A stretch of DNA of 42,185 nt from Thermococcus celericrescens (lineage in GTDB: Archaea > Methanobacteriota_B > Thermococci > Thermococcales > Thermococcaceae): the NCBI RefSeq assembly GCF_001484195.1, contig NZ_LLYW01000022.1, positions 1 to 42,185 of the forward strand, in the 5' to 3' direction. Position 1 is the stretch's first letter; each line of letters begins with the position of its first letter. Shown in pieces: positions 8,068-38,334 of this stretch. The notes below the pieces were generated by a model. The model searched no databases. It was not told the origin of the DNA and worked only from the letters and a program-made list of their open reading frames with translations. The translations under genes were made by a program, and so were the position numbers.

Positions 8068-9178
8068 CTCTCTCCCATCCCCTAACTTTTCCTCTCATGT
8101 AGATTCCAACCAGAACCGCCACCGCGACGTCTGCCAGCGCAAACAGGAGCTTCGTGAAGACCTCTATGTCGGAGAGCGTCAGTATGGCCATCGCGTAGCG
8201 GGTGGTGAGGTCTATCGTCACCCACAGGGCCGGCATCATGAGCAGCGTTGATGTGTAGTACCAGATGTGGTGGTCCTTCCTCAGGTAGGACTGTATCACC
8301 TTACCAGTTATCATGACCGCTACCCCTATTATCAGGGAGGGGTTGAGTGCGTTGATGTAGATCAGCATCGCGAGGAGCGGCGTTCCTGGATAACTGCCTA
8401 TCAGCTCCAGGGAGTACTCCTCGAGCCGGAAGTAGGCGTTTATCGCACCTCCTATGATGATCAGCGCTCCGGCTATGACCGAGATGACGAAGACGAACTG
8501 CTTGGCTATGGTCTCACGGACGTTGAATCTGAAGCCCTTGGTGAAGAAGTAGCCGCCGATGAAGAGCAGTATCGTGCCGGTTATCGTGGCGGAGATGATC
8601 TTAACACTCTCCGGATACCAGACGCCGATGAGGCGCGCTATCCCGTACAGCAGGAGTATCATACCCGGAATCCCAAGGACCACCTTGGCAACCTCGGGGT
8701 CGCTCAGTATCTCCTTCAGATACCGGTAGATGATGTAGTATGTCGTCTCTATGCCCTCGCTCTGTTTGACCACGACGCGGTGGGAGCTTATTATCGGTAC
8801 CTTCGATGTGATTATCGGGAATATCTGCTCGTCCTCGGCGCCGTCGGTGACGGTGATAACCCCATCCGCCGGGAACCTCTCAAGGACGAGCTCCAGTTGC
8901 CTGGCGAGCTCCAGGTCGCTCTTGACACCCACCTTCGGATGGCCGGTTATGAGGGCCACCTGAACGTCTTCGAACTCGTCGCTCTCGCGCAGCCCGTCGT
9001 AGAGTTTGACCGCGGCGTAAACCACGTTGGCATCGCTGTCCTCCGGGTCGGCCAGGCTGAGCTTTAGGGCGGCGTCGATACAGGCGTCTCGCCCGATGAC
9101 CGGCCCCTCCACGCCGGCCTTCCCTCCGAAATCGTCGTCGCGGTCTATAGCGAGAATCAGTGCTTTAATATCAACCAC
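8045..9178 (-). CDS. DUF373 family membrane protein
   Basis: 377 residues. The N-terminal half is a soluble alpha/beta region beginning ALILAIDRDDDFG and containing GPVIGRDACIDAAL, VALITGHPKVGVKSDLEL and DGVITVTDGAEDEQIFP, which I recognise as archaeal DUF373. From about residue 165 there are about six membrane helices. The GTG start at 9178 overlaps the MTH1187-type gene by 8 bp and follows GGTGAGGG. The function is not established; the Asp-rich soluble half and the fixed membrane half suggest a nucleotide- or metal-dependent membrane role. It sits in the middle of a three-gene operon. Confidence 0.85.
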   Translation of the reverse strand: MVDIKALILAIDRDDDFGGKAGVEGPVIGRDACIDAALKLSLADPEDSDANVVYAAVKLYDGLRESDEFEDVQVALITGHPKVGVKSDLELARQLELVLERFPADGVITVTDGAEDEQIFPIITSKVPIISSHRVVVKQSEGIETTYYIIYRYLKEILSDPEVAKVVLGIPGMILLLYGIARLIGVWYPESVKIISATITGTILLFIGGYFFTKGFRFNVRETIAKQFVFVISVIAGALIIIGGAINAYFRLEEYSLELIGSYPGTPLLAMLIYINALNPSLIIGVAVMITGKVIQSYLRKDHHIWYYTSTLLMMPALWVTIDLTTRYAMAILTLSDIEVFTKLLFALADVAVAVLVGIYMRGKVRGWERVEAGASA

Positions 9179-9473
9179 CCCTCACCTTCTCCATCACCGA
9201 TTTTACCTTGTCCTCCATGTGTCTGTCCTTGTCGCGCCGGTCGTCTATCCTCACGGTTGTTGAAACCCTCTCGGCTCCCATTTTGAAGATCAGCTCATGG
9301 GCCTCCTCGATTATTGCGAACGCTTCCCGCACCGTTGGAACCTCTATGATCGTCGCCATCGGCGTCAGTTGATATTTAACTCCCTTCCTCTCTAAAAGCT
9401 TTACCACTTCTGCGACGTACCTGCTGAGACTCTTCTCACCGAGGGGAACTATGACGAACTCCACTATGACCAT
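9171..9473 (-). CDS. MTH1187-family thiamine-binding-type protein
   Basis: 100 residues from ATG 9473 (MVIVEFVIVPLG). The pattern VEFVIVPLGEKSLS, followed by KGVKYQLTPMATIIEVPT, matches the small MTH1187/YkoF-like (DUF77) ferredoxin-like family; relatives bind thiamine or its pyrimidine part and form tetramers. An upstream in-frame extension to 9728 runs through the divergent promoter region and the AMMECR1 gene and is rejected. First gene of the operon with DUF373 and the coiled-coil protein. Confidence 0.8.
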   Translation of the reverse strand: MVIVEFVIVPLGEKSLSRYVAEVVKLLERKGVKYQLTPMATIIEVPTVREAFAIIEEAHELIFKMGAERVSTTVRIDDRRDKDRHMEDKVKSVMEKVRGG

Positions 9474-9504
9474 ATTCGACACCCGACTTAACTTTTTTCG
9501 GCAA

Positions 9505-9535
9505 TCTTTTAAATCTTGCGGGAAAGGTAAATAAC
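9505..9535. promoter_or_regulatory. Divergent promoter pair
   Basis: On the minus strand GATTTAAAAGA (9515-9505) lies about 25 bp before an inferred start near 9485 for the MTH1187-type gene. On the plus strand GGTAAATAAC (9526-9535) lies about 25 bp before a start near 9556 for the AMMECR1 gene. The two TATA boxes are only about 20 bp apart, so the operons may be coupled. Confidence 0.5.
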
Positions 9536-9566
9536 CCTTCGGCGCATTAATGAGTGGGGTGAGTGG

Positions 9567-10184
9567 ATGTACAAGATAAAGGATGAGTGGGGCGAGTTCC
9601 TCGTCAGGCTCGCGAGGAGGGCGATAGAGGAGTACGTTAGAAACGGCAGGACGATAAAGCCTCCAGAGGACACACCTCCGGAGCTGTGGGAGAAGATGGG
9701 CGTCTTCGTGACCCTCAACAATCGCCATGCTCCACCTCAGATGGCCCTCCGCGGGTGCATCGGCTTTCCCCTTCCGGTATATCCGCTCGTCGAGGCTACG
9801 ATAAAGGCGGCCATCTACGCCGCCGTCGACGACCCGCGCTTCCCGCCCGTGCGGGAGAGCGAGCTGAACGACCTGGTTATCGAGGTGAGCGTCCTGACGC
9901 CCCCTGAGCCGGTTGAGGGGCCGCCGGAGGAGAGACCGAGGAAGATAAAGGTCGGCCGCGATGGGTTGATAATTGAGAAGGGCATCTATTCCGGCCTGCT
10001 TCTCCCACAGGTGCCGATAGAGTGGGGCTGGGACGAGGAGGAGTTTCTGGCCCAGACCTGCTGGAAGGCCGGTCTTCCGCCCGACTGCTGGCTCGATGAG
10101 GATACGAAGGTTTACCGGTTCACGGCGGAGATATTTGAAGAAGAAAAACCGGGAGGGCCGGTCAAAAGGAAGCCGCTGGTTTAA
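9567..10184 (+). CDS. AMMECR1 domain protein
   Basis: 205 residues, the usual length for archaeal AMMECR1 proteins. The signature LRGCIG is at about residue 68, preceded by GVFVTLNN and followed by AIYAAVDDPRFPPV and IEVSVLTPP; the C-terminal half has QVPIEWGWDEEEFLAQTCWKAGL. The conserved LRGCIG loop with a cysteine suggests an enzyme or RNA/nucleotide-binding role, but no activity is established. Start ATG 9567 follows GGGGTGAG. The gene overlaps the convergent methyltransferase by 4 bp. Confidence 0.9.
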   Translation: MYKIKDEWGEFLVRLARRAIEEYVRNGRTIKPPEDTPPELWEKMGVFVTLNNRHAPPQMALRGCIGFPLPVYPLVEATIKAAIYAAVDDPRFPPVRESELNDLVIEVSVLTPPEPVEGPPEERPRKIKVGRDGLIIEKGIYSGLLLPQVPIEWGWDEEEFLAQTCWKAGLPPDCWLDEDTKVYRFTAEIFEEEKPGGPVKRKPLV

Positions 10185-12637: not shown

Positions 12638-12718
12638 TTGTCCCTTTCCGCTGCCATTCTTTTTTAAGCATGGCGAAGTTTATTAGTCCCCACGTCGAAA
12701 ATCCCACAGGTGTTGGTT

Positions 12719-15047
12719 ATGATACTCGATACCGATTACATCACCGAAGATGGGAAGCCCGTCATAAGGATATTCAAGAAGGATAACGGCGAGTTCAAGA
12801 TAGAATATGACAGGAACTTTGAGCCCTACATCTACGCTCTCCTGAGGGACGATTCTGCCATAGAGGACGTCAAGAAGATAACCGCCGAGCGCCACGGCAG
12901 GGTCGTTAAGGTGAAGCGCGCCGAGAAGGTTAAGAAGAAGTTCCTCGGCAGGCCGGTGGAGGTCTGGAAGCTCTATTTCACCCGCCCCCAGGACGTCCCG
13001 GCTATAAGGGACAGGATACGTGCCCATCCTGCCGTCGTTGACATCTACGAGTACGACATCCCATTTGCCAAGCGCTACCTCATAGACAAGGGCATAATCC
13101 CGATGGAAGGCGACGAGGAGCTCAAGATGCTGGCATTTGACATCGAGACGCTCTACCACGAGGGCGAGGAGTTCGCTGAGGGGCCCATTTTGATGATAAG
13201 CTACGCCGATGAAAACGAGGCACGCGTTATCACGTGGAAGAAAATTGACCTGCCCTTCGTTGACGTTGTCTCCACCGAGAAGGAGATGATAAAGCGCTTT
13301 CTGAAGGTCATCAAAGAAAAAGACCCCGACGTGCTCATAACCTACAACGGCGACAACTTCGACTTCGCCTACCTCAAAAAGCGCTGCGAAAAGTTCGGGA
13401 TAAAGTTCACCCTTGGCAGGGACGGCTCGGATCCAAAAATCCAGCGCATGGGGGACAGATTTGCGGTCGAGGTGAAGGGGAGGATTCACTTCGACCTCTA
13501 CCCCGTCATACTGCGCACCGTCAACCTGCCCACATACACGCTTGAAGCTGTCTACGAGGCAATTTTCGGCACCCCTAAGGAGAAGGTCTACCCCGAGGAG
13601 ATAACCACCGCCTGGGAGACCGGCGAGGGGCTTGAAAGGGTCGCGCGCTATTCCATGGAGGACGCTAAAGTCACCTTCGAGCTTGGAAGGGAGTTCTTCC
13701 CGATGGAGGCCCAACTTTCGCGGTTGGTAGGTCAAAGCTTCTGGGACGTCTCCCGTTCAAGCACCGGCAACCTCGTGGAGTGGTTTTTGCTTAGAAAGGC
13801 CTACGAGAGGAACGAGCTCGCTCCAAACAAGCCAGATGAGAGGGAGCTAGTGAGGAGAAGGAACAGTTACACCGGCGGCTACGTTAAGGAACCAGAACGG
13901 GGATTATGGGACAATATTGTGTACCTGGACTTTCGTAGTCTCTACCCTTCAATCATCATCACCCACAACGTCTCACCAGATACGCTGAACCGCGAGGGCT
14001 GTAAGGAGTATGACGAGGCCCCGCAGGTTGGCCACAAGTTTTGTAAGGACTTCCCCGGCTTCATCCCGAGCCTCCTCGGAAACCTGCTCGACGAGAGACA
14101 GAAGATAAAGAAGCGCATGAAGGCCACGATAGACCCGCTGGAGAAGAAGCTCCTCGATTACAGGCAGCGGGCCATTAAGATACTGGCCAACTCTTATTAT
14201 GGGTACTATGCCTACGCCCGCCGCTCGCTGGTACTGCAAGGAGTGCGCCGAGAGCGTTACGGCATGGGGAAGGGAGTATATTGAAATGAGCATACGGGAG
14301 ATAGAGGAGAAATACGGCTTTAAAGTCCTCTACGCGGACACGGATGGGTTCCATGCGACAATTCCAGGAGCTGACGCCGAAACTGTCAAAAAGAAGGCGA
14401 TGGAGTTCCTTAAGTACATCAACGCCAAACTCCCCGGTGCGCTTGAGCTCGAGTACGAGGGCTTTTACAAGAGGGGTTTCTTCGTCACCAAGAAAAAGTA
14501 CGCGGTAATAGACGAAGAGGGCAAGATAACCACGCGCGGACTTGAGATTGTGAGGCGTGACTGGAGCGAGATAGCCAAGGAGACGCAGGCGAGGGTTCTG
14601 GAGGCGCTGTTGAAGGACGGTAACGTCGAGGAAGCCGTGAGCATAGTTAAGGAAGTGACGGAAAAGTTGGGCAAGTACGAGGTTCCGCCTGAGAAGCTTG
14701 TAATCCATGAGCAGATAACGCGCGAGCTGAAGGACTACAAGGCCACAGGCCCGCACGTGGCGATAGCGAAGCGTCTGGCCGCGAGAGGCGTGAAGATACG
14801 GCCGGGAACTGTCATCAGCTACATCGTGCTCAAGGGCTCCGGGAGGATAGGCGACAGGGCGATTCCCTTTGACGAGTTCGACCCCACGAAGCACAGGTAC
14901 GATGCTGAGTACTACATCGAGAACCAGGTTCTCCCGGCCGTCGAGAGGATTCTGAAGGCCTTCGGCTACCGGGCGGAGGATTTGCGCTACCAGAAGACGA
15001 GGCAGGTTGGGCTGGGGGTGTGGTTGCAGCCGAAGGGGAAGAAGTGA
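12719..15047 (+). pseudogene. polB: Family B DNA polymerase, broken by a single-base frameshift
   Basis: The gene starts at ATG 12719 after AGGTGTTGGTT. The first part carries the exonuclease site [10 protein letters not shown] (D141, E143), YNGDNFDF, then the polymerase motif [14 protein letters not shown] and [11 protein letters not shown]. Near 14216-14227 the frame is lost: the upstream frame runs into unrelated sequence and stops at 14282-14284, while the +1 frame continues as [30 protein letters not shown] (catalytic Asp pair) and the thumb to 15047. Compared with KOD/9°N polymerases the spot shows about one extra base; 2329 nt equals 776 codons plus one, and repaired it would be 775 residues, exactly 9°N length. 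No intein is present. It is either a real loss of PolB or a sequence error. Confidence 0.85.
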
Positions 15048-37704: not shown

Positions 37705-37956
37705 TCACCTCCTCGGCCTGTCGTCGTAGAAGTACTTCGCGTGGGCCTGCGCCTGAGCGTCCATGACGCGCCTCTTTACGGTGAGGGCGTAGACGACCAG
37801 GAGGAGCAGGAACAGTCCACCCGCGAAGAGTCCGTAGAGCCTGAGAATTGAATACGCGGAGAACGCCAGAACCCCAAGTATCGTTAGAAGGACGATCCCG
37901 AATATCCCGAAGAGTATCTTATACCCGTACCTCTCCATGAAGAGGTCGAAATCCAC
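37705..37956 (-). CDS. Small two-helix membrane protein
   Basis: 83 residues from GTG 37956 (VDFDLFMERYGYK), preceded by GGTGGTT. The start is supported by the paralogue at 37699, which opens in the same way. Two membrane helices follow (ILFGIFGIVLLTILGVLAF; LYGLFAGGLFLLLLVVYAL), then a basic tail (KRRVMDAQAQAHAKYFYDDR). The longer frame reaching 38259 lies over the divergent gene and is rejected. Forms a two-gene operon with the frameshifted paralogue downstream. No family recognised. Confidence 0.6.
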   Translation of the reverse strand: MDFDLFMERYGYKILFGIFGIVLLTILGVLAFSAYSILRLYGLFAGGLFLLLLVVYALTVKRRVMDAQAQAHAKYFYDDRPRR

Positions 37957-38046
37957 CACAACCACCGTATGAGTTTTATCCCATACAACGTAAAAGCCTT
38001 TCGGGAGGCTTAAATACTCTCCCTGATAAATGGGTACGTGGTGAAG

Positions 38047-38334
38047 ATGAAGGTTCGCGAACTTTTGGAGATCCTGGACGAGACGATAGCGACGGTGAGG
38101 ATAGCCATCGTTTCCAACCAGCAGAGGGCCTTTGAAAGTCCCCACACCAGCTACGAGTTCACGCAGAGGGCGATTGAGCTTCAGGAGGACCTCGACGATC
38201 TCTTGAAAGCTAGAGATGTCCTGACAAAGCTCGACCCGGAGGACGATGTGGAGAACCACTACCCCCGGGAGGAGCTCGAGGAGTTTTTAAAGCTCCTGGA
38301 ACTTCTCAGAGGGGCCGAACCGCATGCCTTCTAA
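38047..38334 (+). CDS. Small helical protein of unknown function
   Basis: 95 residues from ATG 38047, after GGTGAAG; GTG 38041 is an alternative. A TATA box (GCTTAAATA, about 38008-38016) precedes it. The sequence is mostly helical and acidic (VRELLEILDETIATVRIAIV; FTQRAIELQEDLDDLLKARD; REELEEFLKLLELLRG), compatible with a helical bundle. It lies about 20 bp before the MazG-like gene and may be co-transcribed with it. Confidence 0.65.
   Translation: MKVRELLEILDETIATVRIAIVSNQQRAFESPHTSYEFTQRAIELQEDLDDLLKARDVLTKLDPEDDVENHYPREELEEFLKLLELLRGAEPHAF

Follow-up and report, generated by a model that had tools for sequence, protein, structure and literature searches.

An extra C at positions 14221–14222 divides the family B DNA polymerase gene (polB) into two open frames. 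This base is probably an insertion error of the draft assembly in an ordinary, intact, intein-free gene of the PolB3 type. The frameshift is read as a sequence error because other conserved genes of the same assembly carry similar breaks of 1–2 bases that have no counterpart in relatives. The organism would then make a normal PolB of ~775 aa with exonuclease and polymerase domains. The window, that is, the whole stretch of 42,185 bases that was analysed, is contig C22 of a 2.34-Mb draft genome in 73 contigs (G000). A total of 36 genomes of the same genus were available for comparison, and the named protein relatives belonged to Thermococcus and Thermococcaceae.

Structure of the polB Gene

The coordinates of polB and of the other features are given in Table 1. 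The 5' fragment contained the uracil-recognition/N-terminal domain, the 3'-5' exonuclease, motif A (DFRSLYPSI), and motif B (KILANSYYG). The 3' fragment contained the remaining palm with motif C (YADTDG), the KKKY region, and the thumb. PF03104 and part of PF00136 (DNA_pol_B) were found in the 5' fragment and the remainder of PF00136 in the 3' fragment, the PF00136 match falling into two adjoining pieces (profile positions 13–172 and 168–452 of 453). The true start of polB is likely the ATG at 12719 (MILDTDY...). All exonuclease and polymerase motifs, including motifs A, B, and C, are shared with the Thermococcales PolB3 enzymes of the KOD, 9degN, and Vent class. These enzymes have a single continuous frame after intein removal, whereas here the extra base divides the frame and the pol-a, pol-b, and pol-c sites hold no inteins. 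The lack of a continuous frame is judged to be an assembly error.

Table 1. Coordinates of polB, its frameshift, and other frame-broken genes of the assembly (window positions unless a contig is named).
Feature	Position	Strand	Remarks
polB, family B DNA polymerase	12710–15047	+	open frames, Pfam, motifs
polB 5' fragment	12710..14284	+	524 aa; ~20 shifted codons before the TGA
polB 3' fragment	14199..15047	+	282 aa; next frame (+1 base)
Extra base, either C of CC	14221..14222	+	removing either gives the family consensus YARARWYC
Premature stop TGA	14282..14284	+	reached after the shift; 524 codons read before
In-frame ATG	14286..14288	+	one base past the premature TGA; would open a 253-aa C-terminal fragment upon re-initiation
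OppA-, OppB-, TldD-, MinD-, and CstA-like genes	G000:C2:65400-67654, C2:16378-17798, C2:111521-112407, C7:42555-44350		indels of 1–2 bases each

Single-base deletions were made in silico across the site. Almost any deletion between 14195 and 14282 rejoined the frames, but only the loss of one C at 14221/14222 yielded the exact consensus within a single frame of 779 codons. The extra base did not lie within a long homopolymer, a point against an error.

Comparison with Relatives at the Site

The sequence-only reading had placed a single-base frameshift in the family B polymerase at 14199–14284, with the join at YAYAR/RWYC, where other Thermococcus polymerases read through. Both statements were confirmed. 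By DNA, 32 loci of relatives crossed the site without heavier divergence, and in each the alignment to the window had one gap, of a single base; a few species were counted twice among them, since two collections were used. No extra residue or shift at the site was found in the PolB proteins of relatives, whose translations read through. The polB protein identity to the closest relative examined was 91–93%. The Ala in YYAYAR was considered as a second local error and rejected, as the same Ala occurred in two relatives (L005 and L021). Separately, a partial PolB gene of the Pyrococcus/Thermococcus type was observed on a contig labelled Faecalibacterium prausnitzii (L046, NZ_PRLD01000031.1, coverage 11763). 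It was interrupted just after ARWYS, and the contig also carried an apparent TetA fragment, a TEM-type beta-lactamase, and a lacZ fragment. This contig is probably a cloning plasmid from reagent contamination.

If the gene were truly shifted, full-length PolB might be restored by programmed +1 ribosomal frameshifting. The two frames overlap without a stop until 14282, and a +1 slip anywhere in 14195–14282 would give a fusion. However, no relative had such a shift, neither a recognised slippery sequence nor a strong structure was present at the site, and the exact consensus returned only when one particular base was dropped. A strong hairpin was rejected as a candidate, since 14180–14270 folded as DNA gave a modest hairpin only. 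Such frameshifting is extremely unlikely.

The two frames were also considered as a functional split polymerase, in which the 524-aa fragment and a 253-aa subunit from the ATG at 14286 would associate without a covalent bond, like the two subunits of Methanothermobacter PolB. The TGA and the ATG are one base apart, a purine-rich GGGGAAGGGAG lies just upstream, and both halves are still conserved. Split PolB genes are known in Methanobacteriales (Kelman et al. 1999, cited in PMC4104785 and PMC7776575), and they share with the present case two adjacent frames that jointly cover the polymerase. They differ in that here conserved residues are removed from both parts and the split is confined to a single assembly. 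About 21–25 conserved residues would be missing from both fragments, with ~20 frame-shifted residues in their place; a start at ATG 14286 would leave these residues outside either product, and only a start at 14199 would keep them. The ATG at 14286–14288 is an ordinary Met codon common to intact relatives, being Met in several of them, and there was no sign of a co-evolved interface. The chance of this arrangement is very small. A working split polymerase and programmed frameshifting are each unlikely, and the extra C is better read as an error.

Selection on the Two Halves and Intein Sites

Selection on the two halves was investigated with pairwise Nei-Gojobori estimates against 12 relatives. 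The dN/dS was 0.028–0.084 upstream of the shift and 0.026–0.086 downstream, the same as between intact relatives, showing strong purifying selection on both halves. Private replacements at otherwise invariant columns numbered 7 of 369 upstream and 2 of 185 downstream, which falls in the range seen for the other sequences. The earlier description of both halves as well conserved was thus upheld, with dN/dS of 0.03–0.09 on either side. The relaxed constraint downstream of the lesion that marks a pseudogene was not seen; after a very young lesion it would not yet be visible. Since the downstream half has no decay, a real lesion would have arisen only very recently.

Such a lesion, a real and very recent single-base frameshift truncating PolB after about residue 500, is improbable, and the event would be very young in view of the undecayed downstream half. 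The same kind of unique indel in other conserved genes of the assembly also argues against it, as does the presence of PolB matches in all genus members examined except one 53%-complete genome. The sequence-only reading had concluded that the frameshift inactivates the polymerase. The frame break is present, but the biological loss probably is not, given the assembly-wide indels and the unrelaxed downstream half.

The match breakpoints of many relatives marked three insertion sites in polB, which we take to be the pol-a, pol-b, and pol-c intein sites. Judged by these breakpoints, all three were empty in the polB of the window, with pol-b located at ~14191–14195 of the window (breakpoints at query 1492/1496). 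An intein remnant was rejected, as none of the three sites is occupied and the shift falls away from the insertion points. The frameshift might instead be a scar left where a homing endonuclease cut the neighbouring pol-b site, since it lies ~25–30 bases downstream of the empty point and many relatives have an insert there. Going by what is established for these endonucleases, however, the extra base would fall beyond the overhang expected from the cut, and the conserved site would itself be unaltered; no link to inteins is known for the other broken genes. A scar of this kind is hardly credible.

Indels Elsewhere in the Assembly

Small indels were surveyed in ~716 kb of G000 (15 contigs or contig parts including the window; ~31% of the genome). 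The 1.99-Mb main contig of G031, the closest relative by polB, was used as the reference. Reciprocal tblastn was performed, and hits of at least 70% identity with differences concentrated at third codon positions were retained. In this way 360 and 372 genes were compared, corresponding to ~325 kb of aligned coding DNA. Twelve genes were frame-broken in G000 and intact in G031, against three in the reverse direction (binomial p = 0.035), one of which was an antisense ORF. When both flanks had ~88–100% identity and the coding third-position pattern, the numbers were 8 and 0 (p = 0.008). Small frame-breaking indels are therefore in excess across the assembly (12:3; 8:0).

The base-level alignment of the broken genes showed mostly indels of 1–2 bases, such as GGAGG to GGAG, CC to C, AAGGCGCT to AAGGCT, and an extended T run. 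The cleanest cases were single- or two-base indels at 96–99% protein identity in CstA-like, OppA, OppB, and TldD genes. A MinD-like ATPase gene was also among the broken genes aligned at base level. The names CstA-, OppA-, OppB-, TldD-, and MinD-like are presumed from our own reading of the sequences rather than from a database scan. In the CstA-like transporter, 598 of 599 residues were aligned at 98–99%, with 99% identity past the shift; the gene was one open frame in every other full-length relative match and broken only in G000. The TldD-like gene was likewise unbroken in every full-length homologue of the genus and frame-broken in G000 alone. The OppB-like permease gene, which neighbours the OppA-like binding-protein gene, was unbroken in all five full-length relatives (G031 and four others, the 98% group) and broken only in G000. 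Within the window, frame-change signals against G031 were also observed at 9174–9814 and 37708–38147, beyond which identity was lower or uneven; diverged gene ends or further indels may account for them.

Gene decay usually brings both indels and stop mutations. Internal stop candidates numbered 6 in G000 and 8 in the reverse direction, with no excess in G000, and most of the 6 were start extensions or spurious or doubtful ORFs. Indels without an excess of stops, confined to one draft and accompanied by full constraint, are more in keeping with indel errors than with gene decay. The alternative that the sequence-only reading had left beside inactivation, an assembly error, is therefore favoured by unique indels of 1–2 bases in genes conserved at 90–99% without an excess of stops. 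From the sequence comparison, the pattern would match indel errors in draft prokaryote assemblies, with breaks of 1–2 bases across unrelated conserved genes in one assembly and no stop excess. We infer from the assembly-wide excess that the polB base belongs to these errors. At the measured indel rate, the chance that a given 2.3-kb gene is struck is 6–8%; polB is not specially expected among the struck genes, and its being there is merely not surprising. None of the other recognised frame-broken genes was clearly essential, which leaves room for a real loss, as polB and some of the others could be genuine pseudogenes of recent origin.

PolD and Viability without PolB

The sequence-only reading had pointed out that PolB can be deleted in T. 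kodakarensis, where PolD replicates. The literature agrees: T. kodakarensis can do without PolB but needs PolD (PMC13136892, PMC3984812), which speaks for a real loss. Cold sensitivity is described for T. kodakarensis without PolB (PMC13136892), and polB mutants are reported to be sensitive to UV (PMC3984812). Some T. kodakarensis PolB variants were not tolerated although the polB deletion was (PMC13136892), and a truncated PolB that is long and keeps its exonuclease intact would not obviously be harmless.

The DP1 and DP2 subunits of PolD, both present here without frame breaks, also speak for a real loss. DP1 was a 742-codon open frame. DP2 was divided between two contigs: its start, beside DP1, ran for 360 codons into the end of contig C24 (28020 bases), and its catalytic part was on contig C25 (C25:82838-85153), a 1418-codon frame with an in-frame insert of ~460 codons that is probably an intein. 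The possibility that PolD is frameshifted too was rejected, as the short DP2 frame is due to the end of C24 and the catalytic part is on C25. Apart from polB, no PF00136 gene was found in the genome. Redundancy through another PolB gene was therefore rejected, and this point too lies on the side of a real loss. By the precedent of T. kodakarensis, a PolB-less cell would be viable here, so that viability would decide neither for error nor for loss.

If the loss were real, what remained would be an exonuclease fragment with motifs A and B that lacks the motif C catalytic aspartates, PolD would replicate, and the role of PolB in lagging-strand maturation would be lost. The case would then resemble the T. 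kodakarensis polB deletion strain TS746 (PMC13136892) in lacking full-length PolB and depending on PolD. TS746 is an engineered deletion, whereas here the single-base change is natural or of assembly origin and both halves are kept and conserved. In a wider form of this reading, the frameshift is fixed, the lineage has been caught losing PolB, replication depends on PolD only, and the indel excess arises from altered lagging-strand maturation. The probability of this wider form is very low.

As an assembly error, the preferred reading, the extra C in polB is a warning only. An annotation pipeline would log polB as broken, and surveys that score replication genes as present or absent in draft archaeal genomes would be led astray. 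Should the loss be real, it would be a natural counterpart of the laboratory polB deletion, showing the reach of PolD in natural replication.
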